Virus record (IMG/VR): IMGVR_UViG_3300042465_004258
Location: 1 to 26,702 of that record
From: a virus
Strand: one strand, 5' to 3'
Length of the DNA: 26,702 nt
The notes beneath the pieces were generated by a model, which saw nothing but the letters and a program-made list of their open reading frames with translations, was not told the origin of the DNA and ran no database searches. A program made the position numbers and the translations under genes. This document shows positions 2,237 through 26,702 of the stretch, piece by piece. Position 1 is the stretch's first letter; each line of letters begins with the position of its first letter.

Positions 2237-4557
2237 CCTTTCTTTACCACCGACAGCACCGGAGCAATCGGGTCTTCGACCATGCGCCGAAGGTCTGATT
2301 TTATCAGGCGAGCGTGTTCGGGCGCGCAATAGACGCGCTTTTTGGACGGGTGATCGGCACTGGCCAGCATTCCTTTGTCGAGCCACCCAGCTTCTTGTAG
2401 CGCGTGCAGGACAGCCGCAGGAACGATCTTCACGCCATTCGGCGCACGCCCTTGCAGGGAGTCGCATATCTTGAAGAACGGCGAACCCACTGCGCCGCGG
2501 GCAAACTCTTGCCGGCGGTGACGTATCTCGTCCAACACGAACGCTTCGGCGATACTCATGCCCGATTCGATCAACGATGCCTTAAACTCCGTCATCATCG
2601 GCGTCGCAGCAGGGTTGAACGCCGACACATCGCGAGCATAGAGCCACGCCGCGATCTGCTGAAATGCGCCCGCCTGGTACCAGTTCCACATGGCGCGGGC
2701 TTCGTGTTCAGGCAGAATCGGCGTAGTGGATTGAATGCAGAACCAACGGCGATCTTGCGAGTCGAGCGTAATGGGCATCTGTTCGTTCGAGAATGCCAGC
2801 ACGAACATCCGGTTCAGCGCCTCGTAGGGGTGCATATTCTTGCGGTTAACGGAAATTGTTTCCGGCGGCGCAGCAATTACCGGCTTTAGGCGGTTCGCCA
2901 AGTCACGGCGAGCGGAGGCGTCCGTCTCTTTAAGCTCATTGAGAATCAGCACTTCCGTCTGAAAGGCGTATCCCCATTGGTTCATGATCTTGTCGCTATC
3001 GACCAGCGAACGGTTGAGGTTCCCTTCGCCGCCAATCGCCCATAGCATGGGCGCCCAAAGCGTATCTTTACCGCAGCCTGGCTTGCCGACGTGCAGCACG
3101 GCGTGGTTAATCTTGGCTTCCGGGTGCTGGACCTTGTAGGCCATGACATTGAAAACGTGTTCGCGCTCCGCTGAGTCGGGAATCAACGCCTCGGCATGGC
3201 GGAGCCAAGGGCCAATATCGCCCATCTCGACGCCCGACACGTCCGGGCGCGCATTGCGCCATAGGTTACCAAACACCGCGCCGTTGTAGGCGACCAGCGG
3301 CCCTTCGCCAGCGGCATAGGTGATACCGTCCAGAATCCGCCCGCCCCGGTCGCGGCGGTTCTCGTCAAAGCACACCGACGCTTCGATCCGGCGACCGTTA
3401 TGGTTGGAGAGGCATTTAACGTGCCGGTACATGGCGTTAAATGCGTTGCGGCGGAATTCCTGGCGGGTGTCTAAATCGAAATAAGCGTCATCTTTCGGAT
3501 TGTAGGCAAATCGATCAAACCATTCCGATTTCTCCAACCGGCTCAAATCTTTGCTCTCTACTTCCTTGATTATTCGCGCCGCTTCATCGGGGAACGCTTC
3601 ATTCGGGGTCAGCTTAGACAGCGCCCGATCCATGTGGACAGTCAAAAGCTCCTCCCTTAGCCCATGCTCGCGCTTAGGGCCGCCGTTATGGGCGATCCAT
3701 TCAAGATATTGCGCGCTGCCGAAACCTTGACAATGGCCGTGGAAACACATGAACGCCCGCGTTGCGGGGTTGTATCGACCCCCGGCGCTGCCGTCGCTGT
3801 GCTGCTCGTAATTCGGACAGAGCACGCCGTACCAGCCTTCCGTGTTCCGCGCCTCGATTACTTGGCCCTGCGCGACCAGCCACGCCAGCACATCATCGGT
3901 GCCGTCGTCCTTGATGCCCCGGATAGCCCGATACTCTTGCGTAGGCTCGCCCGGAACTACCTCAAGGGCTTGGCAGATTTGGGCTAGGGTAAAGGTGCGC
4001 TCGGGGTGGAACTCGCTTAGAACGGCAGCAAAGCCGTTATGGGCGGGCTTCAAGTTAACCGACCCTGGCAGGCGGAAATTGCGAACGGGGTTGATGGCAC
4101 CCGGATCGGTGTAACCCGCCCCGGCGATGGCCTTGATCGCGGCGCTGAATTCGCCCTTCTTGGGCTGGTGATCGAAATCAAAGGCGTAGCCCCATTGGAA
4201 GTTGCCGGGGCTGGTTTCAACCTTCCAGGTCGGCTCAAGGGGAGGCGTCTTGGACTTGGTGCCAATGTCGTCCAGCACCATGACGGCAACATGCTCGCAG
4301 TAGGCGCGAGAGGCACTTGGCTGGCCGTTCTCGAAGCGGTCGATGATATAGACGGCGGTGTTCCCATACCACGCCTGGCCGGGCTTTGCTTTGCGCTCAT
4401 ACTCGGACGGCAGATAGGCGGGCCAAGTCGCCACAATCGCACCGTCGCCGTGAAAAAGCAGGTCGCCGTCCGCGCCTTTCTTGGGCTTTTGACGAACGAA
4501 CAAAACAGTTTCGTTTTCGCCAACAAGTTGTGTAAGATACTCGGGCAAATCGTGCAT
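2233..4557 (-). CDS. Replicative primase-helicase (PrimPol-like domain plus DUF5906 SF3-type helicase)
   Basis: Encodes 774 residues from an ATG at 4557 with AGGGG 6 bases upstream; the frame is open further out but lacks a ribosome site there. Residues 30-180 resemble a PrimPol-type primase, with candidate acidic residues in AVMVLDDIG (Asp96-Asp97) and the RNFRLPGSVNLK element near 160-170. A Cys/His cluster around 260-290 (CPNYEQH and CFHGHC) looks like a zinc-binding linker. The C-terminal half is a phage/plasmid helicase of the DUF5906 class: Walker A GKPGCGKDT (Lys497), Walker B-like VLILNEL (Glu541) and the sensor stretch VLAFSNEQMP. It would prime and unwind DNA for the adjacent polymerase, like the NrS-1-type primase-helicases. 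Which acidic residues are catalytic is inferred. Confidence 0.88.
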   Translation of the reverse strand: MHDLPEYLTQLVGENETVLFVRQKPKKGADGDLLFHGDGAIVATWPAYLPSEYERKAKPGQAWYGNTAVYIIDRFENGQPSASRAYCEHVAVMVLDDIGTKSKTPPLEPTWKVETSPGNFQWGYAFDFDHQPKKGEFSAAIKAIAGAGYTDPGAINPVRNFRLPGSVNLKPAHNGFAAVLSEFHPERTFTLAQICQALEVVPGEPTQEYRAIRGIKDDGTDDVLAWLVAQGQVIEARNTEGWYGVLCPNYEQHSDGSAGGRYNPATRAFMCFHGHCQGFGSAQYLEWIAHNGGPKREHGLREELLTVHMDRALSKLTPNEAFPDEAARIIKEVESKDLSRLEKSEWFDRFAYNPKDDAYFDLDTRQEFRRNAFNAMYRHVKCLSNHNGRRIEASVCFDENRRDRGGRILDGITYAAGEGPLVAYNGAVFGNLWRNARPDVSGVEMGDIGPWLRHAEALIPDSAEREHVFNVMAYKVQHPEAKINHAVLHVGKPGCGKDTLWAPMLWAIGGEGNLNRSLVDSDKIMNQWGYAFQTEVLILNELKETDASARRDLANRLKPVIAAPPETISVNRKNMHPYEALNRMFVLAFSNEQMPITLDSQDRRWFCIQSTTPILPEHEARAMWNWYQAGAFQQIAAWLYARDVSAFNPAATPMMTEFKASLIESGMSIAEAFVLDEIRHRRQEFARGAVGSPFFKICDSLQGRAPNGVKIVPAAVLHALQEAGWLDKGMLASADHPSKKRVYCAPEHARLIKSDLRRMVEDPIAPVLSVVKKG

Positions 4558-4576
4558 TGTTTTCCCCTGTAAGTTG

Positions 4577-4612
4577 GCCCTCGCCGGATACCGTCCGGCG
4601 GGGGCTTTTTTT
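4577..4612 (+). terminator. GC-rich hairpin with T-tract, oriented for plus-strand transcripts
   Basis: The arms CCCTCGCCGGA (4578-4588) and TCCGGCGGGGG (4594-4604) pair over 11 bp with one G-U pair and the loop TACCG. They are followed on the plus strand by seven T (4606-4612). Both flanking genes are on the minus strand, where the hairpin is preceded by A and followed by no U-run. It should therefore stop antisense transcripts coming from the left. On the sense transcript it is a stem between the polymerase stop and the primase ribosome site. Confidence 0.6.
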
Positions 4613-6563
4613 ACTTGCCGTACCGTTGCATCGTCTTGATGCCAACCGATAACGGCAAACCTTCCGCCCACACGGGCGGCGTTGTCATGATCCGTTTCAT
4701 TTCTGCGACCACGCTATCAGCCGTTTCGCTAGGGCATTCAACAACAATTTCGTCGTGAACGTGCAAAACAACATCACCAAGCCCGCGAAGGCTATGGCGT
4801 AACAAATCAGCGGCAGTTGCTTGCGTGACATTCTCACAGGCAAGTCCTTTCCAGAGGCGAGCGCGGGGCCATTCGGTTGCCTCCGCCGCGGGTTTCCATG
4901 CAGCTTTGAGATAGGTGACGCCTTCGGCGTCAAGCTGCGCGAACGGGTAGCACAAGACGCGGCCAGACGGCAGAGCATACCATAGGTGCTGGCCGTCATA
5001 GAGGTACGTAATCCGACCCGCTGTAAACTCTCGGCCTTTGTTGCGTAGCGCCCGCGTATAGGCGTTTTCGAGATTCTGCCAGAATGACACCGCCCACGAA
5101 TTTGCCCGCCGCCAGGCGTCTACAATACGCTTGGCATCGCTTTCAGGCAGGGTAATGCCGTAGTTGCGGCCCATCGCGGCGAATGCGCCGACGCCGCCTG
5201 CGAAGCCTAGCGACAGAATAGCGACCTTACCGATCTGACGTTGATCGTCGTCAATCTCGCCTTCAGGCGTTGCAAAGATGCCCGCCGCTTCACGCTTATA
5301 GATGTCGCGGCCATCGCGGAACACTTGCAACACCGGCTCGGCGCGTTGCTCCCCGGACAGCCACGGGTTGACCCGCGCCTCAATCGCGGACCAGTCTGCT
5401 ACGACAAATACACATCCTCGTCGGGGGACAAGTGCAGGTCGGAGCATACCTTTAAGAACGTCAGTAACGCGTTTGCCGAAGGCGGGTACGATACTGTGAC
5501 CTCGGACCAAGGCAGTTCGCACCCCCTCGGGATCTCTAGCGCACTTACGCGTAAAGTTATGGACTTGCGCGCCATAGGAAGAAGCGCGTCCGGTGGCACT
5601 TCCACCAGCAAATACAAAGGCTCCTCGGACACGGTGGTCCTCCTCATCGGCTAACTGTAGCAGTCTCTCGAATTTGGCGACGGACGACGCCCATAGATCG
5701 TCGGCGCACTGTACGACATCGGCCACGGCGGACGGCACTTCGTCGGGGCTATCCTCGGCCAGCACCAACAGATTCGCCCGAACGGTCTTGTCAATGCTGA
5801 ACTTCTGCTCGCCATCCTTGTAGACGGTCATCAATTTCTGGCCTTGCGGGCCGACACGGGCCAGCACCCATTCGCGCATCTTGGGGCTGCGGACGCTGGT
5901 AATCTCGCCGATGGTAATGTCGGCCACCAAGCGCTCTATTTCCTCCAGCTCACGCTCGGCATATTCGGTCGCGGCCTGGGCCATTTCAACGTCTACCAGC
6001 ACGCCCCGATCATTGATGCGCTCGTTAACGTGATAGTCGGTCAGTTCTTCGTCGCTCAAGTCACGCATGGCAAGCGACGCGGCCCGCATGGCACGAACGT
6101 CCTGCTCGCAATAGGCCACCATCTCGGCCATTAAAGCGGGGTCGTCGTTAAACGTGCCGTCTGCACGGGGAACGGAAAGCAATCGGATAAGCTGCGCTCC
6201 GCGATGATCTTTACGCATATTGCTGCTAACTGCGCGGCCTAAGTCCTCAAGCGAACCGGGCAGGCAGTTAGCGCGGGCTTGCGCGGCAGTGCAATAAAAC
6301 TGCTCAAGCTCGAAGTTGATGTTGAGCACATACCAGAAAATCAGCCGCTCGAACGCGGCGTTGTGGGCGCGAATCTGGCCGGTGTGCTGGCGCACGGCCT
6401 CCGGGAAAGGCTCGCCTGGACGCCAAGTGCTAACGGGATCGTCGCCAAAAGCGTAGCTCATGCACAACACATCGGTGCTGGCATCCTGAGCGTAGTTGTA
6501 GACGCCGCGTGCAGGCAGGTCGCAGCGGGATTTTGTCTCGAAATCGAGCCAAAGTATACGCAT
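4611..6563 (-). CDS. polA: DNA polymerase, family A (Pol I-like) with 3'-5' exonuclease
   Basis: Encodes 650 residues from the ATG at 6563; MRILWLDFETKS is the natural start of the exonuclease domain, although a TTG at 6599 would add 12 residues. The exonuclease shows LDFET (Asp7, Glu9), HNAAFERLIFW and YCEQDV. The polymerase domain shows motif A VADWSAIEAR (Asp390), motif B RQIGKVAILSLGFAGG (Lys446) and motif C HVHDEIV (Asp604, Glu605). No 5'-3' exonuclease domain is present, as is usual in phages. The residue four after the motif B lysine, equivalent to E. coli Phe762, is Leu450, and the Tyr766 equivalent is Phe454. It acts with the downstream primase-helicase and the upstream ssDNA-binding candidate. 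A terminator-like hairpin sits directly before its start. Confidence 0.97.
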   Translation of the reverse strand: MRILWLDFETKSRCDLPARGVYNYAQDASTDVLCMSYAFGDDPVSTWRPGEPFPEAVRQHTGQIRAHNAAFERLIFWYVLNINFELEQFYCTAAQARANCLPGSLEDLGRAVSSNMRKDHRGAQLIRLLSVPRADGTFNDDPALMAEMVAYCEQDVRAMRAASLAMRDLSDEELTDYHVNERINDRGVLVDVEMAQAATEYAERELEEIERLVADITIGEITSVRSPKMREWVLARVGPQGQKLMTVYKDGEQKFSIDKTVRANLLVLAEDSPDEVPSAVADVVQCADDLWASSVAKFERLLQLADEEDHRVRGAFVFAGGSATGRASSYGAQVHNFTRKCARDPEGVRTALVRGHSIVPAFGKRVTDVLKGMLRPALVPRRGCVFVVADWSAIEARVNPWLSGEQRAEPVLQVFRDGRDIYKREAAGIFATPEGEIDDDQRQIGKVAILSLGFAGGVGAFAAMGRNYGITLPESDAKRIVDAWRRANSWAVSFWQNLENAYTRALRNKGREFTAGRITYLYDGQHLWYALPSGRVLCYPFAQLDAEGVTYLKAAWKPAAEATEWPRARLWKGLACENVTQATAADLLRHSLRGLGDVVLHVHDEIVVECPSETADSVVAEMKRIMTTPPVWAEGLPLSVGIKTMQRYGK

Positions 6564-17081: not shown

Positions 17082-17509
17082 GTCAATACCTCGTAAGGTT
17101 TTTGCTTTAGGACGTTCCCGACGCCAAAAGCGCTATCAAGTTCATCTTCTACCAAATCCGTCTCTGCGGCCTCAATATCTTCCGCATCAGTGCGGTGGAT
17201 AGTCATGCACAGCGCATCCGTTTCCGCATAGACCGCCCGACGAGTGCCGGGTTTGCTGCACAGCAAGTGCGGACCCGTAATTGTTACCACACCGTCATCT
17301 GTTGTAACCGATACCGTCCCGCTTACCACCATATAGAAATGTTCTTTTTTGTGAACTTTTCCAATAATGACCGCCCCCGCAGGACGCCACACTTGACGGC
17401 AATACATCCCGCCGTGGAACGTATGCGTCGTTGGTAGCTCAATTTGCGGAAGGTTCAACACTTCCGTTTTGAGCGCGTCCACGCGGTCGCGGAGAGCCAA
17501 TTCGGTCAC
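17078..17509 (-). CDS. Cupin-fold protein in the tail/ejection operon
   Basis: Encodes 143 residues from a GTG at 17509 that overlaps the previous stop as GTGA. The core GAVIIGKVHKKEHFYMVVSGTVSV resembles cupin motif 1, with His53, Glu56, His57 and Gly64. LCSKPGTRRAVYAETD resembles motif 2, where an Arg stands near the usual second His. Thus a metal site may be incomplete. Similar cupin-like proteins occur next to tail genes in podoviruses. The role could be structural or enzymatic and is not known. It lies exactly between the fibre genes and the ejection genes. Confidence 0.75.
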   Translation of the reverse strand: MTELALRDRVDALKTEVLNLPQIELPTTHTFHGGMYCRQVWRPAGAVIIGKVHKKEHFYMVVSGTVSVTTDDGVVTITGPHLLCSKPGTRRAVYAETDALCMTIHRTDAEDIEAAETDLVEDELDSAFGVGNVLKQKPYEVLT

Positions 17510-17841
17510 GATATTTCCCGCCCGCTTGCGCGGATGCTGATCGCCAGCGCAGTGCCGGCTACGGTAGAAATATAGCCCCCAGACGGCAGTACATGGCCGA
17601 CAATTTCCGGAAAAGTGTACGCCTCTGACGGCTGTAATGTCTTGGCTTTCGTGATGACGTTATCGTTGGCAGCAGTGCCGCCAGGCGTCACTAGGTAGAC
17701 CGTAATTGTCGCCGCCGTCGTATCAAAGTTTGTTGCGGTGAACTTGTCTATAATCGTGACTACGTTAGCCGCTGTGTACTGAGTCGTTACAGACGCTTCA
17801 GCAACCTTAGCGGGGATGATGTTTTTAGCCGTTACCGTCAT
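17506..17841 (-). CDS. Small beta-rich virion-associated protein
   Basis: Encodes 111 residues, with GAGGA about 8 bases upstream of the ATG. The chain is Thr-, Val-, Ala- and Ile-rich with alternating strands (VVTIIDKFTATNFDTTAATITVYLV; AYTFPEIVGHVLPSGGYIS), typical of an Ig-like or jelly-roll sandwich. Proteins of this type recur beside fibre genes in proteobacterial podoviruses. A decoration, adaptor or receptor-contact role is possible; nothing in the sequence decides. It is coupled to the cupin gene by overlapping start and stop. Confidence 0.7.
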   Translation of the reverse strand: MTVTAKNIIPAKVAEASVTTQYTAANVVTIIDKFTATNFDTTAATITVYLVTPGGTAANDNVITKAKTLQPSEAYTFPEIVGHVLPSGGYISTVAGTALAISIRASGREIS

Positions 17842-17851
17842 ATCGCGGTCC

Positions 17852-18265
17852 TCAAGTCATGGTCCAATCGGCGGTGCCGCTACCTGTCAACGGCCAGCCG
17901 GCATAGCTCCACGCCCACGTAGCGGCGCCAAGAGAATAGCTATATACCGCGTCAGCGGCGCTTAGTGTACCGCCCGCCACGGTCATGTTGGAAAAGTATC
18001 CCAACGCACCTGGGTCCGCGCCAAAACCGGTAATGGTCATCACCGCTCCGTAGCTGAGTTCGCCCGTCGCCCCGTCATAAACAAAGTAGTAATAGACAGA
18101 GTTAAGCGTTCTGCTCCCCGGCAAAGAAGTCCCCGTGCTACTGCCGTGAGTGGAATCAAAGCCGTAATACGTAGTATCGCCGCTTGTCCACGTTGCTTGC
18201 GTAATGACGCCCGTGGCCTGCCCTACCGCCGAGCCGCCACTTCCGCCCAAAAGAGCTTGAAGCAT
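17852..18265 (-). CDS. Fibre-tip partner protein, copy 1 (paralogue of 25766-26176)
   Basis: Encodes 137 residues from the ATG at 18265, which shares one base with the stop of the tail-fibre gene (TGATG). The chain is rich in Gly, Ser, Thr and Tyr and has no Lys. It shares with the gene at 25766-26176 the ordered motifs SLPGS (47-51), ITGF followed two residues later by DP (78-85), and YSYS with A-x-W-x-W (108-119). Both are about 137 residues and both follow a fibre gene directly, so they probably form a tip, cap or assembly partner for the fibre. No enzyme motif is seen. The visible ribosome site is weak, which suggests translational coupling to the fibre gene. Confidence 0.75.
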   Translation of the reverse strand: MLQALLGGSGGSAVGQATGVITQATWTSGDTTYYGFDSTHGSSTGTSLPGSRTLNSVYYYFVYDGATGELSYGAVMTITGFGADPGALGYFSNMTVAGGTLSAADAVYSYSLGAATWAWSYAGWPLTGSGTADWTMT

Positions 18266-19227
18266 CACGACAGTCCGGCCCCCGTAACTATGGCTTCCGT
18301 AGTGGAATTAAACCAGATAGTAGCCATTCCTCTTGCCGCAAGCGTTCGGCTACCGGTGTTGGTCGTACCTCCCTGCCGCAACGTCAGCCCCGCGCCTTGC
18401 GTTAGCGTAATAGAGGACGCGGAATTGTTGTAAACGCTAAAGGCATCGCCCGCAGCAAACACGTTAGCGGGCACTTCTACGTTTCCCGTCGAAGCATAGC
18501 AATGCCCTCGACCCGTTAGCGCCGCGGTTCCTCCGGTGGTTGCGGTGTGAACGATCTGTTTATAGCCTACTTCGACGCCGCCGTAGTTGAACACGCCTGC
18601 CGCCGTCACCGTAGCCCGAGAGCTTCCCGCCGTCCTAAAATCCAGCGTGCCCGCCGCATCCGAAGCGCTGATCGTCAAAGCGCCGGAAACACTGCGAAGA
18701 AGCGTTCCCGCCTGTACTGTGCCGGATTGCACATCGAGCGTTTGGGCGGGGGCGCCAGTGCCAATCCCCACCCTGTTATTAGCCGCGTCAATGTACAGCG
18801 TATTGCTGTCAAAGTTCAGGTTGTTTGGCGTGCTTACATTCAATGCGTTAATTGTCACCGCGTCGCCGGAGGCGTCGCCAAGAGTTGTATTGCCTTGGAT
18901 GGTGACGTTGCCCGTAAATGTTGCGGTGCCAGAAAACGTCGGGGCAACAGACGACACGCCGCCGGAAAGATTATCGACTGTCCATATTTCAACATCGGCG
19001 GAGGTCGTCAGCTTGAACTTGTAATTGCTGGTCGTCAGCCAGATTGAGGCTTCGCCTCGGGAGTCCAAGATAACGGGATTGGCGTTAGCGACCGTACCCG
19101 TTTGGTCGGTGTACGTCGCCAACGGCGTTGTCGTCCCCGCCGCATAGGTATACACCTTGCCGCCCGACAAAGGAGCGCCATTCGCATCGAAAAACTGTAG
19201 CTTAGGTTGCGGGGAAATAAGTGACAT
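18265..19227 (-). CDS. Tail fibre protein
   Basis: Encodes 320 residues. The N-terminus (SLISPQPKLQFFDANGAPLSGGKVYTYAAGTTTPLATYTD) with DSRGEASIWL is the attachment domain seen in many phage fibre proteins. The shaft is Thr-, Ala-, Asn- and Gly-rich with RVGIGTGAPAQTLDV. The end (NNSASSITLTQGAGLTLRQGG; IWFNSTTEAIVTGAGLS) is a beta-rich C-terminal domain. AAGG lies 8 bases before the ATG. It should be part of the receptor-binding apparatus and is coupled by a one-base overlap to its tip partner. Confidence 0.85.
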   Translation of the reverse strand: MSLISPQPKLQFFDANGAPLSGGKVYTYAAGTTTPLATYTDQTGTVANANPVILDSRGEASIWLTTSNYKFKLTTSADVEIWTVDNLSGGVSSVAPTFSGTATFTGNVTIQGNTTLGDASGDAVTINALNVSTPNNLNFDSNTLYIDAANNRVGIGTGAPAQTLDVQSGTVQAGTLLRSVSGALTISASDAAGTLDFRTAGSSRATVTAAGVFNYGGVEVGYKQIVHTATTGGTAALTGRGHCYASTGNVEVPANVFAAGDAFSVYNNSASSITLTQGAGLTLRQGGTTNTGSRTLAARGMATIWFNSTTEAIVTGAGLS

Positions 19228-19228
19228 A

Positions 19229-19951
19229 TTAGTAGCCTTGCCAACTGATGTTATCGGTCACCGTAATGATTACAGACGGAATGCCAGGATGCACGCCCGA
19301 CGCCGCTTCAGCTAAAATTTGCGTGTTGGTATCGTCGGTAGCCCACATAATTTCAAAATAATCGCCAGCGTTCATTTGCAACAAATAGTTCCATGCCGCC
19401 AGCGTTTCGGCATTGTTTCCTTGAATTCGTATTTGCCCCGCCGAATTTGCTACGTCGTTGCCATTATGCCGTAGCCAAATATACGTAATAGACGTTCCGC
19501 CCGAAACTTTATCTAGCTGCGCCGAAAATTGAATGTTGTATATGCCGGGGTTGTCTACGTAAATCCGCGAGGTAGGTGAGCCTACATAGACACCAAAAGA
19601 TAAATCTGTTGCGTTGATCGTCATTGCATACGCAGTGTTGATAGCTGCTGCGGTTTGCGTTGTCGTATCGTAAAACGAGCCATACCGCAACCGAGAGGTA
19701 TGCGGAGTAAGCGCGGGGGCAACCGCCAATCCGTCTATTTGATTTTGAAGCTCTGCAAATGTCGATGTTGCGCTGTTATCAGAAGGCCCCAATTGCAAGT
19801 CTTCTGTCGATACTTGCACGGACCCGGCGCCCGTCAAGTTAAACAGATTGTAAAAGAATCTGTACCATTCACGCGCCATCAAGCCCGTGCGCGGGTCGAT
19901 AAATTCAACTCGCGGCGCGGGAATGTTGGTTACGTTGGGGACGTTAGGCAT
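19229..19951 (-). CDS. Tail fibre/spike-like protein with C1q/TNF-like jelly-roll end
   Basis: Encodes 240 residues from the ATG at 19951, chosen for the GGGGA just upstream; a TTG 12 bases earlier is less likely. The N-terminus (MPNVPNVTNIPAPRVEFIDPRTGLMAREWYRFFYNLF) is a common phage anchor for structural proteins. Residues 100-240 resemble a C1q/TNF-type jelly roll: RIYVDNPGIYNIQFSAQLDK, ITYIWLRHNGNDV, AWNYLLQMNAGDYFEIMWA and IPSVIITVTDN. Such domains trimerise and often bind receptors. It overlaps the gp10-like gene by 8 bases and precedes the tail fibre gene, so it may be a second receptor-contact component. Confidence 0.8.
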   Translation of the reverse strand: MPNVPNVTNIPAPRVEFIDPRTGLMAREWYRFFYNLFNLTGAGSVQVSTEDLQLGPSDNSATSTFAELQNQIDGLAVAPALTPHTSRLRYGSFYDTTTQTAAAINTAYAMTINATDLSFGVYVGSPTSRIYVDNPGIYNIQFSAQLDKVSGGTSITYIWLRHNGNDVANSAGQIRIQGNNAETLAAWNYLLQMNAGDYFEIMWATDDTNTQILAEAASGVHPGIPSVIITVTDNISWQGY

Positions 19952-21482
19952 TGGTCCCCGCAATCTGCAATTCCGCGCCCAAAATGGCGATCTTTACGGG
20001 GTCAGTGCCCGACACTTCATACACCCGATCACGGATTTTTAGCGTCGTGCCAAGGCGCCGCCAAATAGCGCGGTGCCCATATTTGCCGATTTTGCCAAGG
20101 CTAGCCCAATGCTCATTAGACCAAGTATGGCCTCCGTCATCCGACCAACGCAGCATCACTTGAGGATTACTGCCTTGAGTCTGTAAAAATGAAGGGCTTA
20201 CTTCTACAACGGTCAGATAAAAACCGGATTCCGTAGTAAGTAAATCGCCCGATTCCGTTTCTAGGAAAAAATTTTCAAAAGGCGAAACGCCGCCGCTTCC
20301 TACTCCAGTTTCGCAATCAAGCTGCATGGCGTGCTGCACCGTGCGTTTGAGATTATTTTGGCCTGTCGGTAACGCTCGCCAAGAACGCAGCCATTTTTGC
20401 GGCTGGTCGTCATCGGTGTACACATCGAGGTCATAGGCGTAAATTTTGCCGCTGGCGTAATCACCAACCACGATTTCGCGGTTAAAATTCATCTGGCAGA
20501 TTGGCCGCTGTTGCGTAAACTGCCCGTATTCAAACGCCGCTCGTTCATGCCACGCGCTGGTAGAAGCGTCGTACACCCATGTTTTGCCCGCTGACGGAAA
20601 CACCAGCGCATAAAACGAGTGCCCTTCTTGCTGATAGGTGTACCCGCGAGCATCCGAAATTACACCGTAATTCTGGATAGCAAACTCAACGGCGTGCGTC
20701 GAAATGCGTTGCGCTTGGTATCCGTTTGCCCTGTAGACGATTCCGTTTCCGCGAGCATCGGAGCCAAGCCAAAATACGGAATTATCCATTTTGGCAACGG
20801 AATAGGCCGCCGCGCAGCCAACTTCGTTGTACGCACCTTGAATCGGCGACAGAGGAAAGTCGGGCAACCCGGCGTCGTACCATACTTCGACAGAGTTGGT
20901 ACCAAACAACCAGACTTCGCGGTGGTCGATAATGAGCGATACCAGCCCATCCGGTGAGCCTTCGGCGCTGGCAAAATCAAGCGGGTCAACCTGGGTGCCT
21001 TCAAGCAAGCTAGTCACCCAGACTTTTTGCGAGTTAGGTTCGTTAAATACGAAATACCCGTCCAGATAGCCGACCATCACCGCGCCGGGAAAATCAGAAT
21101 CGGTAATTTGCTGAAACGCACTTGTCGTTGAGTTGTAGATGTACCCTGTAGGGTTAGCGGCGATAAATAATTGCGTGCCATTATCCGCCATCGACACCGG
21201 GCCAATACCCGCTACTGCGCCCAAAGCAGTCGCGCTCCACGTCGAGCTGACTTGATATAGCGTCGATCCGCTGACAACATAGCCAAAATTGCCAAACTGC
21301 CACATCCCGCGGATAGGCCCATCGCCAATTGTTGCGAGTAAGCGCAGCCCTGGCGCCCGGTTCAAAAAGGCCGGTTCCTTTCCGCCATCGGGGATAACTT
21401 CGGGGAACAAATTGACCATGCGGTTGTCCGCAGCATTGACGCTGCGGGCCACATACGCTTGTCCCAGAATCGGCGTTTTCAT
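19944..21482 (-). CDS. P22 gp10-like packaged-DNA stabilisation (tail hub) protein
   Basis: Encodes 512 residues, close to the 472 of P22 gp10. The start (KTPILGQAYVARSVNAADNRMVNLFPEVI) and the many short WD- or kelch-like blades (GYLDGYFVFNEPNSQKVWVT; WLFGTNSVEVWYDAG; QMNFNREIVVGDYASGKIYAYD) are typical of the gp10 family, a six-copy ring that closes the portal after packaging and supports the tail. The C-terminal part (PQVMLRWSDDGGHTWSNEHW) is also conserved. Its start overlaps the gp4-like stop (TAATG). The Shine-Dalgarno is weak, so coupling is likely. Confidence 0.92.
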   Translation of the reverse strand: MKTPILGQAYVARSVNAADNRMVNLFPEVIPDGGKEPAFLNRAPGLRLLATIGDGPIRGMWQFGNFGYVVSGSTLYQVSSTWSATALGAVAGIGPVSMADNGTQLFIAANPTGYIYNSTTSAFQQITDSDFPGAVMVGYLDGYFVFNEPNSQKVWVTSLLEGTQVDPLDFASAEGSPDGLVSLIIDHREVWLFGTNSVEVWYDAGLPDFPLSPIQGAYNEVGCAAAYSVAKMDNSVFWLGSDARGNGIVYRANGYQAQRISTHAVEFAIQNYGVISDARGYTYQQEGHSFYALVFPSAGKTWVYDASTSAWHERAAFEYGQFTQQRPICQMNFNREIVVGDYASGKIYAYDLDVYTDDDQPQKWLRSWRALPTGQNNLKRTVQHAMQLDCETGVGSGGVSPFENFFLETESGDLLTTESGFYLTVVEVSPSFLQTQGSNPQVMLRWSDDGGHTWSNEHWASLGKIGKYGHRAIWRRLGTTLKIRDRVYEVSGTDPVKIAILGAELQIAGTNA

Positions 21483-22195
21483 TAGTAGTTGCCGGCGAAG
21501 ATATTAAAGCGTTGCCGAGTACCAATCAGGCTGTACGGCATACTCATAATGTCATCTGGGTTATTAATGCGCTTCAACGTGCGTTTTGACGCCATTGCAA
21601 TGCGCTGCACTTGAGGCGGAGGCTCCATGCCAAACTCGGGAGCGAATTCGCACGCCAAGTTGTAGCGGAAAGCACGCAAGTATCCTGGCGGAAACGACAG
21701 CGTGGTTGCCAGTGTCGCCGGTTGCGTCAATTCCTCTACCGACACGACATGAAACTCCAGCACTCGGGTCGGCACCGGGTAAACGTACATTTCGATATTC
21801 GGGTACGTCATGTTGACCCACAGTACCTGCGGGTACGTGCTGGTCACGGTTTTTACCGCGATACCGTTGTATTGCTGCTGGTTAATCAGCTTCAGGCCGT
21901 AAGAAATGCCTGTGCTGGCATCGCGGAAATAGGTAGAGTCATCCACCAGCACCGGACGGTTAGCAACAAGATCGCCCGTCGGCCCCATCGTTCGATAGCG
22001 TTCGTTAGGCGGCCAGTTCACCACTTGGTCTTGGGTAGAAAAAACCGAAAGGCGCTCGGTGTTCCACGAATCAATCATTTGATTCATGGCGTTCAGCGCG
22101 TCTTGAGAAGTTTCTGCGGACGGCGACTCGCCTTCAGCCAGCACGCCAAGCAGCCGCAAAGACCCGTTAATGATGTCGCCGGCAGAAGTCGCCAT
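21482..22195 (-). CDS. P22 gp4-like head-to-tail adaptor (tail accessory factor)
   Basis: Encodes 237 residues, with AGGAAG 7 bases before the ATG. It begins ATSAGDIINGSLRLLGVLAEGE and continues ALNAMNQMIDSWNTERLSVFS, a helical start typical of P22-gp4-type adaptors. FPPGYLRAFRYNLACEFAPEFG lies near the C-terminus. It is expected to bind the portal and recruit the gp10-like hub. It is longer than P22 gp4 (166 residues), as in many environmental podoviruses. Some gp4 proteins have been linked with peptidoglycan hydrolysis; I see no motif for that here. It is coupled on both sides by TAATG. Confidence 0.88.
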   Translation of the reverse strand: MATSAGDIINGSLRLLGVLAEGESPSAETSQDALNAMNQMIDSWNTERLSVFSTQDQVVNWPPNERYRTMGPTGDLVANRPVLVDDSTYFRDASTGISYGLKLINQQQYNGIAVKTVTSTYPQVLWVNMTYPNIEMYVYPVPTRVLEFHVVSVEELTQPATLATTLSFPPGYLRAFRYNLACEFAPEFGMEPPPQVQRIAMASKRTLKRINNPDDIMSMPYSLIGTRQRFNIFAGNY

Positions 22196-22389
22196 TAAAG
22201 TGCTTCCTGAGGTTGTGCCTGTTTGCGACGGCGCGTGCGCGCCAAACCGTTATCCGGTGCCGCATCGTCAGGAACTGACGGCGTTCCCAAAGTATACCTT
22301 ACCCATCCATTTTGCTCATCTGCGGCGGCTTCCATGTCGGAAATCGCCACTTTTGTGCCGTGTTTAGGGTGCCTCAAATAGATGTGCAT
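22195..22389 (-). CDS. Small conserved phage protein
   Basis: Encodes 64 residues starting MHIYLRHPKHGTKVAISDMEAAADEQNGWVRY, a pattern found repeatedly in podovirus head modules. A very strong GGAGGAG lies 4 bases before the ATG. The C-terminal 20 residues are basic (ARTRRRKQAQPQ). It overlaps the glycosyltransferase gene by 16 bases and the gp4-like gene by 1. Role unknown; a head-assembly or connector accessory role would fit its place. Confidence 0.75.
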   Translation of the reverse strand: MHIYLRHPKHGTKVAISDMEAAADEQNGWVRYTLGTPSVPDDAAPDNGLARTRRRKQAQPQEAL

Positions 22390-23060
22390 AGGTCTCCTCC
22401 AGGTTGACGGCGCAAGTAAAGGTGAAAATTTCCTTTATATACAGCAGTTTCCGTGTGATGGTCTAGGTTTAGGTCGGGAACGATAAACAGTTCCCCTCCC
22501 CGCTGTAGCCACCGACGGCAAAAAGCATAGTCCTCGCCGTACCACGTATGGTTATACGCGCCGTGGTTAAACAGGTCTACATGGGGGGTGTGAAGCTCCC
22601 CGTAAACAAGCTCCGGGTATGAGCGAATGATGTCGTTAACGGCCTTAGTGGTAATCTTCAAAAATCCCGCGGGGGCCGAAAACCCGTGAAGCGCCCCGTC
22701 TTTAAGGCGCACAATGGGGTTGCCTTCGTCATCCGTGAGGACGCTTCCCATGTATTCTTCTTCGTCTTTTTTGAACCGATACACCCCTGCCACTACATCG
22801 CCTTCTGTCTCAATAAGCGTCAGAAGGTCTTGAGGGCGCCAAGACAGATCGTGGTCAATAAAAACGATAACGTCGGCTTTAGCATCGAGCGCTTTTCGCA
22901 GCATGGTGGCGCGGGCGCTAGAAATGTAAGGGCAGCCGATTTCAAAAACCAAGCCGTGTTCCCATCCGGCTGCTTTCAAAAGCGGCTCAGAAGCCGCCAG
23001 TGAGTCAGTGCAGGCTTTATGGGGCTTGGTCAGCGTAGGAACGCAAAATACAACTTTCAT
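22374..23060 (-). CDS. GT-A-fold glycosyltransferase-like protein within the head module
   Basis: Encodes 228 residues. It starts MKVVFCVPTLTKPHKACTDSL, a Rossmann-like first strand. Later it has SARATMLRKALDAKADVIVFIDHDLSW, where Asp69 and Asp71 form the D-x-D motif used by GT-A enzymes to hold a metal and nucleotide sugar, and GEDYAFCRRW as a probable acceptor-side acidic motif. The protein is short but compatible with phage GT-A proteins. The acceptor is unknown; capsid or fibre proteins, or host surface sugars, are all possible. It begins 6 bases after the T-tract of a strong terminator and has no recognisable Shine-Dalgarno, so expression is probably low or separately controlled. Confidence 0.8.
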   Translation of the reverse strand: MKVVFCVPTLTKPHKACTDSLAASEPLLKAAGWEHGLVFEIGCPYISSARATMLRKALDAKADVIVFIDHDLSWRPQDLLTLIETEGDVVAGVYRFKKDEEEYMGSVLTDDEGNPIVRLKDGALHGFSAPAGFLKITTKAVNDIIRSYPELVYGELHTPHVDLFNHGAYNHTWYGEDYAFCRRWLQRGGELFIVPDLNLDHHTETAVYKGNFHLYLRRQPGGDLCTSI

Positions 23061-23065
23061 AAGGT

Positions 23066-23099
23066 TAAAAAGGGCGGAAGGCTGTTGCCCCCCGCCCTT
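23066..23099 (-). terminator. Strong intrinsic terminator after the coat-protein genes
   Basis: On the minus strand AAGGGCGGGGGGC (23099-23087) pairs with GCCTTCCGCCCTT (23082-23070) over 13 bp including two G-U pairs. The loop is AACA and five T lie at 23071-23067. It follows the last small head gene by 5 bases and separates the high-output coat genes from the glycosyltransferase and later genes. Confidence 0.88.
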
Positions 23100-23104
23100 C
23101 GTAT

Positions 23105-23383
23105 TTACGCCGTGGCGTAAATGCCCAGGCCGATCAGGGTATTCTGAATTTCCTGAACGGCAGCAAGCTGCGTCGCACCAAAAGCGGTAGACGTAGCAAG
23201 GGCGCTCGTCGCATGAACGGCAGAGCTATACGGTCGGCGAACTACGGGCGCCTTGCCGTAGAAGCCCACCAAACCCGACGTACCTGCAACCTGAACCGTA
23301 GAGCCTGCGCGGCCCACGTTCAGCGTTTCGTTGGTATTGCCATCGCCCAACTGTTCACCATCACCAACCTGCGGAAGTGCCAT
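23105..23383 (-). CDS. Small head protein, decoration or head-fibre candidate
   Basis: Encodes 92 residues, with AAGGAG 8 bases before the ATG. It is Gly-, Ala- and Thr-rich (MALPQVGDGEQLGDGNTNETLNVGRAG; STVQVAGTSGLVGFYGKAPVVRRP) and ends with the helix AVQEIQNTLIGLGIYATA. This shape, a flexible or beta N-terminus plus a short C-terminal helix, is common for small capsid-associated proteins encoded directly after the coat gene. The assignment as decoration or head fibre is inferred from place and composition. A terminator follows at once. Confidence 0.7.
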   Translation of the reverse strand: MALPQVGDGEQLGDGNTNETLNVGRAGSTVQVAGTSGLVGFYGKAPVVRRPYSSAVHATSALATSTAFGATQLAAVQEIQNTLIGLGIYATA

Positions 23384-23395
23384 TGAAACTACTCC

Positions 23396-23710
23396 TTAAA
23401 TGTTGCCGTCGGTAATCGTCGAATCCTTCCGGCTCAACAAGACTTGATAAGTCTGGCTGGCCGTCGGAGTAATCGGCGATCCCGTAAAGTTGCCGAACGT
23501 AATCGCCAGCGTATTTGCCGCCGACACGCGAACACCAACAATACCCAAACCGGCCTGAGCCGTTGGCTTGTTGATGCTCACCTGATCTCCCGGCAGCAGG
23601 CCGTTGACCGTAAACGTCTGTTCGGCAGACGTATTGGCCGCGACCTGCGCCGGAGACAGCGTAACGCTGATGACCGATTGCTTGACGATATTGCCAAGAA
23701 CGTAACTCAT
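23396..23710 (-). CDS. Small beta-rich head protein (decoration candidate)
   Basis: Encodes 104 residues, with GGGGG about 6 bases upstream of the ATG. The sequence alternates strands and turns (SVISVTLSPAQVAANTSAEQTF; LLPGDQVSINKP; LGIVGVRVSAANTLAITFGN), like an Ig-type or other beta sandwich. It lies between the coat gene and another small head gene with gaps of 3 and 12 bases. A capsid decoration or stabilisation role is likely but unproven. Confidence 0.72.
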   Translation of the reverse strand: MSYVLGNIVKQSVISVTLSPAQVAANTSAEQTFTVNGLLPGDQVSINKPTAQAGLGIVGVRVSAANTLAITFGNFTGSPITPTASQTYQVLLSRKDSTITDGNI

Positions 23711-23713
23711 AGA

Positions 23714-24928
23714 TTACCCCCAAATACGGGCAGCCATCGGAGCGCGGATTACGCTGTAGCCGTACAGAACGTCGATACGGCAAGGCATACGGTCGTTGTT
23801 GATGTCGTACTGACGCACGATACGCAACGAAATACCGTTATGAACCTGGCGGGAAGCCATGTCCACACCCTGCGGCATCAAAAGGTCTGCCGTTGCAAAC
23901 GTAATCGCGTCCTTCTGGTACACGAGGTTTTGCGGGTAGCTGGTCGAAGCCGAACCGAGGAACGTAATGGTCGCGTTATCCTGCGGGAAGCTGTCAATGG
24001 TCGCCAGCGCGTTAGAGCTGGTGTACATCGGCGGGCTAACACTGACGTTAGTCCACGCGCCGCCCGTAGCGGTCGAGGCCGCCGTCACCACGAACTGCTG
24101 AAGCGAGCCGGTAGACTGGCGGGTCTGCGGGTTGACCGCGTACACGCCAGAAACCGTAAACACATCGCCCACGTTTACCGTGGCAGAACCCGTACCGCCA
24201 TCAAAACTGATGGTGGACTGGCCCTGAGTCGAAATGGTGCCATTAACAAGAATGGTATCGGAAGTCGAACGCGAACCCGTGGTGTGGTTCACGATAGACT
24301 GCGACATCGAAATCTCGTCATAGCCCAGAACGCCCGTACCCATGAGGCCATTCTTGAACTGACGGCTGATAGTATCAACCGGGTTAAAGAACCCCTTCAT
24401 GCCTTCGACAAGCCCCGCGTTTGCTGCCGGGTTGACCGTTGCATAGCGGCTGTTCATCGGGGCGGCGTACTCGTTCAGCTTCTGCTGCGCCTGCAACAGA
24501 ACCAGCGAAGTGCTAGGCACCGTGCCAGGCGTGCCGACCGAGCTATAAATGCCCTTGTACGCATTTGCAACGTCGTTATCAATGCTTGACGCAAGCTGGC
24601 TTACGCGAGGCTTAAGCACGCGTTCGGCAAAATCGTCAAGCTGCATCGTCAGTTCGGCGGTAGTGAAGTTGACGCCAATGTGCTTCTGGCTGGAAACCGT
24701 CAGCGTGGTGTACTGTTCGTTATCGTCCTGAACCTGGAGCGCGGCGCCGTCCGTCACCAAAGCGCGATCCGGCAGACGAATCCGCAGCGTGGAGCCGATC
24801 TTTGCGCCTTCGACCGCAAAGCTGTCGTCATATGCACGATTTACGTTACGGGTGAGTACGAGGTTATTCTCCAGAATTTCCAGAGTTTTCCGCGTAATCA
24901 TGTCAATAGTCAGCAGTGAATTAGCCAT
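23714..24928 (-). CDS. Major capsid (coat) protein, P22 gp5 type
   Basis: Encodes 404 residues, near the 430 of P22 coat. Diagnostic stretches are the start MANSLLTIDMITRKTLEILENNLVLTRNVNRAYDD, then GSTLRIRLPDRALV, KHIGVNFTTAELTMQLDDFAERVLKP, YDEISMSQSIVNHTTGS and the end VLYGYSVIRAPMAARIWG. The region of about 220-320 (TISFDGGTGSATVNVGDVFTV) should be the inserted beta domain typical of P22-like coats. A strong GGAGG lies 4 bases before the ATG. The protein assembles around the scaffold encoded just upstream. Confidence 0.96.
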   Translation of the reverse strand: MANSLLTIDMITRKTLEILENNLVLTRNVNRAYDDSFAVEGAKIGSTLRIRLPDRALVTDGAALQVQDDNEQYTTLTVSSQKHIGVNFTTAELTMQLDDFAERVLKPRVSQLASSIDNDVANAYKGIYSSVGTPGTVPSTSLVLLQAQQKLNEYAAPMNSRYATVNPAANAGLVEGMKGFFNPVDTISRQFKNGLMGTGVLGYDEISMSQSIVNHTTGSRSTSDTILVNGTISTQGQSTISFDGGTGSATVNVGDVFTVSGVYAVNPQTRQSTGSLQQFVVTAASTATGGAWTNVSVSPPMYTSSNALATIDSFPQDNATITFLGSASTSYPQNLVYQKDAITFATADLLMPQGVDMASRQVHNGISLRIVRQYDINNDRMPCRIDVLYGYSVIRAPMAARIWG

Positions 24929-24943
24929 GTGGCCTCCTAAAAA

Positions 24944-25717
24944 TTAACGGTTTTGTTGCGTTTCCCACTTTTTACGCTGGCGGGCGCGGTCGGCTTCAAT
25001 CCACTCTGACGTAGACATAGACTTGACCGAACGGGGGTCAGTCGTGTCGTATGTTGGAGCAGTCGAACCTCTCGGCGTTACAGGCGTAATCGGCGCTGGC
25101 GCGGTTGAAGTTTTCTTGGTCGGGGGATTGTCAGCCAATTTGACCTCAATCTTCCCGATTTCTTTGGCTTGCAGATACGGCGACAGTCGAGCAATTCGGT
25201 CTGCTTCCTTGGGGTTTGCGCCCAAGTAGTAGGCCAAATCCGGGCCAATATCCGACGCCTGAATTGTCTCCGCCATCACGGTCGTAACTTTAAGATTCGG
25301 GTTGTAGACAACTTGTTCAAAGTCGTCGTACTTGTTCCGAGCTTCTTCTTCACGTTCGTGATAGGCATCAAGCAATTCTTGACGCTGACGGGCCGCTTCA
25401 CGTTCAGCCAGCAACTGTTCCGCCTTTTGAGCCGCTACTGCTTCCGCATAGGCATCGGCTTCATCGGGCGTTGCAAACGCTTCCGGCTTTCTGATCTCGA
25501 CCGGGGCAACGGGGGCAGATACCGTTTTGGTTTTCTGCTCTCGCTCCCACTTTCGCTGCTCTCTTGCAAGCCTTTTGCCAATAGCGGCATCCAACTCCTC
25601 TTGAGTAAAGAGCCGTGGCTTTTCTTCCGGCGTAGAAACTTCAGCCTCCGGGGTCGCCGTGACATCCGGGGTCGGCGCGGGTGCAACCGCTTCTTCAGTG
25701 CTAACTACTTCGTCCAT
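24944..25717 (-). CDS. Scaffold protein
   Basis: Encodes 257 residues from the ATG at 25717, preferred because AGGA lies 6 bases upstream. The N-terminus is acidic and Pro-, Thr- and Val-rich (EVVSTEEAVAPAPTPDVTATPEAE). The middle is a long charged coiled coil (FTQEELDAAIGKRLAREQRKWEREQKTK; AEQLLAEREAARQRQELLDAYHEREEE). A basic C-terminus (SEWIEADRARQRKKWETQQNR) follows and could bind the coat, as in P22 gp8. Position directly before the coat gene is classical. The 25718-25765 gap upstream holds a small hairpin only. Confidence 0.92.
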   Translation of the reverse strand: MDEVVSTEEAVAPAPTPDVTATPEAEVSTPEEKPRLFTQEELDAAIGKRLAREQRKWEREQKTKTVSAPVAPVEIRKPEAFATPDEADAYAEAVAAQKAEQLLAEREAARQRQELLDAYHEREEEARNKYDDFEQVVYNPNLKVTTVMAETIQASDIGPDLAYYLGANPKEADRIARLSPYLQAKEIGKIEVKLADNPPTKKTSTAPAPITPVTPRGSTAPTYDTTDPRSVKSMSTSEWIEADRARQRKKWETQQNR

Positions 25718-25735
25718 TGTGATTCCTGAGAATCC

Positions 25736-25752
25736 CTGGTGTTCCGCACCAG
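25736..25752. other. Small hairpin between the fibre-tip gene and scaffold gene
   Basis: Perfect 6-bp arms CTGGTG (25736-25741) and CACCAG (25747-25752) flank a 5-base loop, with no T-tract on either strand. It sits at the boundary between the AT-richer fibre module and the scaffold gene. RNA processing or chance are equally possible. Confidence 0.4.
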
Positions 25753-25765
25753 TACGGCACAAAAT

Positions 25766-26176
25766 TTAATTTGTGTATATTAAAACAGGCGCGCTGCCAC
25801 CAGCGCTAGCAAAATTAAAATTACCGTTCCATATCCATAAAGCATTGCCAGATGAATATGAGTATGTTGCAGCAGAACTATACGCAGTTACGTTATTTGC
25901 TCGGCAAGCGGTAAAAAAATTAGCCGATGGGTCAGAGCTAAAGCCTGTTATGTATAACTGCGATGTCAACCCGGTAGCCGGATCATCAAAATCCATTAGC
26001 ACTGCTAAAGTCGTACTTCCAGGCAAAGAATCCGAAGTTATTGCCCCTAACGACGGCGATGCACGGTATCCGAAACCTAAAATTGGGTATCCTGACACAT
26101 CGGTGCCCACTGTCATTACCGCGTCTAACAGAATAACAAGTGAATTTCCTGTCGAAAATCTAGCCGCAAAAGACAT
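25766..26176 (-). CDS. Fibre-tip partner protein, copy 2 (paralogue of 17852-18265)
   Basis: Encodes 136 residues from the ATG at 26176, which shares one base with the stop of the upstream fibre gene (TAATG); AAAGG lies about 10 bases upstream. It matches copy 1 in length and in ordered motifs: SLPGS (50-54), ITGF with DP (76-83), YSYS (105-108), and A-L-W-I-W (112-116). The remaining sequence is well diverged, so the duplication or acquisition is not recent. DNA here is visibly richer in A and T than in the coat gene. A role as fibre tip, cap or assembly partner is inferred from the pairing with fibre genes. Confidence 0.75.
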   Translation of the reverse strand: MSFAARFSTGNSLVILLDAVMTVGTDVSGYPILGFGYRASPSLGAITSDSLPGSTTLAVLMDFDDPATGLTSQLYITGFSSDPSANFFTACRANNVTAYSSAATYSYSSGNALWIWNGNFNFASAGGSAPVLIYTN

Positions 26177-26702
26177 TAGGCAAAACCTTTTGAAAGTGTG
26201 GCGTACCAATACCCCGTACTGCTGCGGTATGTAGCCACCACCAAATCAACCGCGTTACTAGCGGTGGATAAAACGCCTGGTACACCTGACGGCCACTTAA
26301 AACTAGAAGGCCAAGTCATGGTACGCCCGCCCGAGCTGTCTTGAGTAATAAACCAGTTGATGGTTTGCCCGTCTGAAGGATTGCTAATTGTTGGCGCGCT
26401 GGTAACACTAGCAGTAAAAGTAGTAGTGAATACGTTAGACAACTGACAATTCACTGTCATTGTGGTTGCGGAAAAAGTAACCGCAACCGAAGTCGTATGC
26501 GCGCCGCCTGAAACTGACAAAATATTAGCCGGCGAACTTGTGCCGACGCCAAGTTTACTTCCGTCAAACGTCAGCGCGGCTCCAGTCGTCAGGACTTTGC
26601 TGGCGTTCAGATAGCTGACCCCGTTAGCAGTCCCGCCGCTAATCGTTACAGCACCGCTGGCCGTTAGCGCTCCAGCCGTTAGCGTTGTTCCGTCAAACGT
26701 CA
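26176..26702 (-). CDS. Tail-fibre-like protein, C-terminal part (5' end outside window)
   Basis: An open minus-strand frame enters from the right edge and ends with TAA at 26178-26176, giving about 175 residues. It contains TLTAGALTASGAVTISGG, LNASKVLTTGAALTFDGSKLGVGTSSPANILSV and a beta-rich end (GQTINWFITQDSSGGRTMTW; ATYRSSTGYWYATLSKGFA). The G-V-G-T-x-x-P-A element is the same shaft motif as in the fibre at 18265-19227. The C-terminal domain differs, so the two fibres could recognise different surfaces. Attachment domain and full length cannot be seen. Confidence 0.82.
   Translation of the reverse strand, partial: TFDGTTLTAGALTASGAVTISGGTANGVSYLNASKVLTTGAALTFDGSKLGVGTSSPANILSVSGGAHTTSVAVTFSATTMTVNCQLSNVFTTTFTASVTSAPTISNPSDGQTINWFITQDSSGGRTMTWPSSFKWPSGVPGVLSTASNAVDLVVATYRSSTGYWYATLSKGFA
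26561..26702 (-). repeat. Direct repeat in fibre shaft (13 bp, 129 bp apart)
   Basis: CCGTCAAACGTCA occurs at 26561-26573 and again at 26690-26702, where the window ends. On the coding strand each copy encodes LTFDG, and the 129-bp spacing equals 43 codons. This suggests repeating shaft segments that may continue beyond the edge. The intervening sequence is not an exact repeat. Confidence 0.6.

Follow-up and report, generated by a model that had tools for sequence, protein, structure and literature searches.

What do two small proteins do in a phage that encodes each of them directly behind a different tail fiber? The question arises from IMG/VR virus record IMGVR_UViG_3300042465_004258, a 26,702-base stretch of DNA (here called the window, at its full length) that is probably a fragment of a virus genome. 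A sequence-only reading had pointed to two fiber genes, A and B, each trailed by a small gene, and had proposed a two-gene fiber-plus-tip cassette present twice. We find that the fibers end in two unrelated domains, designated class C (fiber A) and class D (fiber B), and that the small proteins, tips A and B, belong to one family and begin with short peptides of a type that follows the class of the fiber end. We estimate a probability of roughly 0.8 that these elements constitute a socket at the fiber end, an N-terminal docking tag, and an exchangeable adhesin tip made as a separate protein.

Both small open reading frames (ORFs) are real, and both are read from the minus strand (Table 1). One base is common to each tip ATG and the fiber stop codon (TGATG in pair B, TAATG in pair A), so that each small gene does start on the stop codon of its fiber, as had been noticed. 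The proteins are also related as supposed: BLASTP aligns A with B at 36% identity over 115 amino acids (aa) (E = 3e-5), and the alignment scores 25.8 bits, whereas 5,000 shuffles of B give no more than 10.1 bits. A profile made from only three other loci (L299, L301, and L302; loci carry L numbers throughout) recovered both tips (A at E = 1e-18, B at E = 2e-10) from a set of 35,894 ORFs. Together, the shuffle test and the independent profile indicate that the similarity is not due to chance. The family has no name in Pfam or PHROGs, in agreement with the earlier reading. Used alone, the small proteins gave no matches in Pfam, in PHROGs, or in named phages (tblastn), and IMG/VR scans seeded with one or two of their sequences returned no relatives; members of the family were reached via fiber-end searches and then with a three-sequence alignment. 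The idea that homologs follow a fiber gene holds for L299 (= L300), L301, and L310, in which they likewise overlap the fiber end. In L302, the tip domain instead forms the C-terminal end of a longer protein (311 aa; 3383-4315) near a fiber with a Peptidase_S74-like C terminus. The window tip domain thus also exists without a tag. A larger superfamily with L267/L297 and sphingomonad tips was considered and was unsupported (profile-profile E = 0.26 to 0.5).

The sampling of relatives covered IMG/VR, GTDB genomes, and named phages, and was uninfluenced by tag or tip, since the queries were the fiber C-terminal domains. Class C gave good matches in 13 further IMG/VR contigs (L165 to L177), and class D matched 55 IMG/VR, 14 genome, and 8 phage sequences. 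All strong socket matches were C-terminal, except for one tandem class-C copy in L165, and no strong socket domain with a tip downstream in the same ORF was found when such fusions were sought. Weak class-D matches at residues 25 to 69 of many fibers were treated as spurious. Of 94 distinct class C and D fiber ends, 86 have an overlap of 1 or 4 nucleotides (nt) with the start that follows, a count that includes the overlapping GTG starts of L287, L292, and L323; the background rate for long ORFs in the same loci is 28% (462/1,642). In three of the eight exceptions (L283, L255, and L311), the tag is still present a few bases downstream; the others are L173, described below, and L010, L169, L193, and L322.

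Behind class-C fibers, the overlapping gene starts with M(S/T)F(A/L/M)AR, or with VSFAVR in three cases, in every contig except L173, where the gene is reduced to a tag remnant (SFAAQ..., 1078-1110) and then a stop, which may reflect a lost tip or a sequencing error. Class-D partners mostly begin like MSGIQMALLG, and among the variants are MAGIHNLFAA, MSGVLGVLLG, and MMTQMLMGAG; the nearest relative of the tip B tag is MMLQALLGAT in L310. As a control, we considered fibers that have the N terminus of fiber B without a class C or D socket: a tag-like downstream start follows 2 of 73 distinct ends, and neither of these overlaps the fiber.

The tag, unlike the rest of the partner, predicts the fiber class. 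Tag residues 2 to 10 gave the class correctly for 43 of 45 nonredundant partners (balanced accuracy, 0.97; 500 label shuffles did not exceed 0.77), whereas partner segments beyond the tag performed near chance (0.41 to 0.59). Of 20 class-D partners outside the training set, all of them from genomes or named phages, 19 scored higher for D than for C; in the exception, L323, the GTG start at the overlap reads SGILNAMF and was skipped by the scoring script. Conservation of the tag lies at the level of the protein. Its codons vary synonymously, the Arg6 codon being AGA, CGG, AGG, or CGT, and the same peptide is preserved at both start offsets (-1 and +2), which argues that selection acts on the peptide.

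Beyond the tag, the partners are diverse, and four unrelated distal families occur behind both tag classes. The family of the window tips is found with a class-C tag in tip A and a class-D tag in tip B and L299; an Ig-like family has class-C tags in L167, L168, and L175 and class-D tags in L245, L252, and others; a Gly-rich family has them in L166 (C) and L277 (D); and a propeller-like family has them in L176 and L177 (C) and in L005 to L009 and L017 (D). The fold names of these families were drawn from Pfam hints and the appearance of the sequences rather than from structures. Some class-D partners match Gly_rich_2, and those in L303 (Sphaerotilus phage vB_SnaP-R1), L307 (Limnohabitans phage YIMV22061), L282, and L311 match the Pfam GP38 family (PF05268) above the cutoff. 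No other functional link is as strong as these GP38 matches, since experiments have established gp38 as a tip adhesin (PMC6851490, PMC12892980). The L303 gene (2746-3519; gp43, annotated as hypothetical) combines a PF05268 score of 25.9 bits with a class-D tag; this is a phage of the Autographiviridae, in which a T-even gp38 is unexpected.

Predicted structures agree with a division of the tip into two parts. In the AlphaFold model of tip B (six sequences; predicted local distance difference test [pLDDT], 87.5), residues 1 to 10 are left disordered (pLDDT, <50) ahead of a folded domain that is mostly beta. The model had no match in the PDB (best E = 0.29) and resembles uncharacterized Caudovirales proteins (best E = 1.6e-10). 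A fold match to gp60 of Burkholderia phage BcepIL02 (E = 0.03) was too weak to be used; that 166-aa protein (L331:17401-17901) overlaps the end of the tail fiber gene gp59 by 4 nt. The class-D socket model (pLDDT, 94.2) is like the XD1/gp9-type domains of phage adsorption proteins (9ny6, 7rej, 1qex), and the notion that it is an XD2/XD3 docking jelly roll was dropped, since its structural matches are of the XD1/gp9 type (PMC8825819).

We propose that each fiber terminates in a socket domain of class C or D and that the overlapping downstream gene yields a separate tip protein whose first 6 to 10 residues would act as a socket-class-specific docking tag. The remainder of the tip would be an exchangeable beta adhesin domain that contacts the host; the distal domain probably grips the host cell. 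Translational coupling could supply tip and fiber together, and assembly would then put the tip at the distal end of the fiber, as gp38 caps gp37. The window phage would use both socket/tag types, mounting one tip family on two different fibers, and the two pairs may serve two host receptors, as had been suggested. We infer physical docking, the position and stoichiometry of the tip, and receptor binding by the window tip family from the sequence patterns and models described above.

The most serious competitor of this proposal is that the small proteins are fiber-specific assembly chaperones, like T4 gp38 or Tfa, which bind the fiber end, aid its folding, and leave. Chaperone genes likewise directly follow fiber genes, an N terminus that recognizes the fiber end would suit a chaperone as well, and the Gly-rich partner in L277 has a weak PHROG match labeled "tail fiber assembly," a label attracted by the gp38 name. 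However, the distal parts that go with a single socket class come from many unrelated families (Ig-like, Gly-rich, propeller-like, and the family with the W-W motif of the window tips), a diversity for which a folding helper of a conserved domain would have no use. With the GP38 adhesin domain in several partners, and with tips A and B matching no chaperone family in Pfam or PHROGs, we regard a chaperone role as improbable. The tag could also be a by-product of the gene junction, that is, a recombination site, a ribosome-binding or coupling signal, or some other DNA or RNA element, and it does sit exactly at the junction, where modules would be exchanged. Such an element is barely credible given that the tag pattern depends on the fiber class and that synonymous codons extend even to a choice between the AGR and CGN arginine boxes, with the peptide kept at both start offsets.

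A narrower account would see in the two window pairs a lineage-specific duplication of one fiber-tip pair and nothing more general. The tips are homologous, and both fibers have the G-(I/V)-G-T-x-x-P-A shaft motif (VGIGTGAPA and LGVGTSSPA) that had been pointed out previously; the fibers match each other weakly (32% over 75 aa, E = 6e-4). Yet the fiber C termini, already described as different, are unrelated domains (class C against class D, hhalign E = 0.07), the tags differ, and tip A has a closer relative than tip B (E = 8e-7) in L299, on another contig (E = 2e-12), the nearest relative of tip B being L310 (59%). Because the C-terminal domains are unrelated and the shaft motif alone is shared, the pairs are not one duplicated pair, and we consider simple duplication very unlikely. 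What stands of the sequence-only reading is a fiber-plus-tip-partner cassette that occurs twice; seen as copies of one pair it does not hold, with only the distal domain in common. Several observations weigh against the docking model that we prefer. Since a fiber and its partner are inherited together, the entries used in the classification are not wholly independent; co-inheritance does not account for tip families common to both tags. The tag of window tip B (MLQALLGG) is atypical and scores weakly on the class-D matrix, three class-D ends (L010, L169, and L322) and one weak class-C end (L193) are without a recognizable tagged partner, and the window tip family is without a member of known function.

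The logic of the proposed arrangement is known from the T-even phages (T2, PP01, and Salmonella phage S16), in which the gp37 fiber trimer is capped by a separate protein, gp38, encoded by the next gene; in gp38, compatibility with the fiber is governed by the N-terminal part and receptor binding by the distal part (PMC6851490, PMC12892980). Both window pairs likewise have the tip gene directly after the fiber gene. The attachment differs, in that gp38 uses an N-terminal helical bundle with three tryptophans, where the partners described here have some 6 to 10 conserved residues, and in that 113 aa were swapped to restore PP01/T2 compatibility, compared with two short tag types in front of several unrelated distal domains. 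Neither of the window tips is a member of the gp38 family, as both lack a PF05268 match in Pfam, and glycine-rich motifs of the gp38 type (polyglycine sandwich) were not found in either sequence.

A parallel to the tag is offered by the secondary tailspikes of K1-5, SP6, KP34, KP32, and Menlow, which have a conserved N-terminal peptide of 7 to 11 residues, hydrophobic in KP34 (MALxxLV), that is proposed to dock onto a virion protein (PMC6872550). These receptor-binding proteins share with the window-type partners a short conserved peptide ahead of divergent domains. For them, the site of docking is either an adapter or a T4gp10-like branch domain close to the virion, whereas here it would be the C-terminal end of the fiber; moreover, here the partner gene overlaps the fiber gene and the partners are small nonenzymatic domains. 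The class-D socket model also differs from the T4gp10-like target, an XD2/XD3 jelly roll, in matching XD1/gp9-type structures. It resembles XD1 of CBA120 TSP4 and the T4 gp9 fold (7rej, 1qex), although in TSP4 it is XD2 and XD3 that are the partner-binding modules, XD1 being described as a spacer (PMC8825819). The lateral fibers of the T5-like phages DT57C and DT571/2 are also made of two proteins, LtfA and LtfB, with a conserved N-terminal 45 aa in the second (PMC4728585); that stretch is longer, and the structure is proposed to be branched rather than end-capped.

On balance, and with less assurance than for the docking model itself, we lean toward a general plug-and-socket standard in which at least two unrelated sockets, each with its own tag of 6 to 10 residues, let unrelated adhesins (including the gp38 type) be exchanged across P22-like, T7-like (Autographiviridae), and cyanobacterial phages, with the window phage using both standards for one tip family on two fibers. 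The gp37/gp38 logic was known already (PMC12892980), and secondary tailspikes have short docking peptides that are either known or proposed (PMC6872550). In the openly searchable literature, we found no description of a minimal tag that is matched to two unrelated fiber ends and common to unrelated tip families across phage groups; subscription journals were mostly outside the scope of the search, and thus novelty is not proven. Fiber ends largely determine the host range of a tailed phage, but the genes for tips mostly carry the annotation hypothetical. With a short tag that can be recognized in the sequence, tip adhesins of unknown families would become identifiable in metagenomic phages, and the scheme would account for the exchange of unrelated receptor-binding domains on an unchanged fiber.

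Table 1. Features of the two fiber-tip pairs, in window coordinates
Feature	Position	Strand	Remarks
Fiber B, 320 aa	18265..19227	-	~90-aa N-terminal virion-attachment part, shaft, class-D C-terminal domain; overlaps tip B
Class-D socket domain, C terminus of fiber B	18268..18597	-	Database matches and AlphaFold2 model
Tip B gene, 137 aa	17852..18265	-	ATG overlaps fiber B stop codon (TGATG)
Docking tag (putative) of tip B, MLQALLGGSG, class-D variant	18236..18265	-	Residues 1-10, pLDDT <50
Tip B distal domain, SLPGS / ITGF..DP / YSYS..W-W family	17855..18217	-	All-beta in AlphaFold2 model
Fiber A, C-terminal 174 aa	26176..26700	-	PHROG tail-fiber matches
Class-C socket domain, C terminus of fiber A	26179..26520	-	13 IMG/VR contigs, L165-L177
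Tip A gene, 136 aa	25766..26176	-	ATG overlaps fiber A stop codon (TAATG)
Docking tag (putative) of tip A, MSFAARFSTG, class-C tag M(S/T)FxAR	26147..26176	-	
Tip A distal domain, family common to tip B	25769..26131	-	

The window phage is a P22-like podovirus by its P22-type coat protein (PF11651, E = 1.5e-33), and a scaffold gene and the head-closure protein Hc3 (phrog_578, E = 2e-134) fit this assignment (Pfam and PHROGs). By the head-closure protein, the annotated phages closest to it are Phage DSL-LC05, MW202483 and Rhodoferax phage P26218. The minus strand carries the structural genes of the window: fiber A, which is truncated by the contig end, is followed by tip A and directly thereafter by the scaffold gene, and fiber B is followed by tip B. 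Homologs of the N-terminal ~90 aa of fiber B occur in 80 IMG/VR loci.

The cassette takes different positions in relatives. In MW202483, a class-D pair occupies the site of window pair A, between portal and scaffold; in L005, L006, L007, L009, and L017, a fiber-tip pair lies directly after the head-closure gene; and in the related phage L301, a class-D fiber with another N terminus, together with a tip of the window family, lies between an ejection protein and a 74-aa gene. Nor are two pairs per phage exceptional, since L291 (IMGVR_UViG_3300047546_000049) has three class-D fiber ends (415-912, 2725-3225, and 4481-5053), each with its own overlapping partner, and L295 and L296 have two class-D fiber ends apiece.

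Some further features of the window and its relatives were noted. A close relative of the window phage lies in scrambled pieces among bacterial genes and runs of N in CP070643.1, the chromosome of a betaproteobacterial metagenome-assembled genome (L333 and L334); these pieces represent a chimeric assembly or a degraded prophage, and a host is therefore not safely inferred from them. Beside pair B, the minus strand encodes a 111-aa protein (17506-17841) that directly follows the fiber in many relatives without a tip gene, and a putative fiber-like protein (19229-19963) whose N terminus resembles that of the L005 class-D fiber and whose C-terminal domain differs; the latter may be a third host-contact protein. 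On the plus strand, an ORF at 94-867 has long alanine-rich repeats (AAARADAAR..., AYAADAY...).

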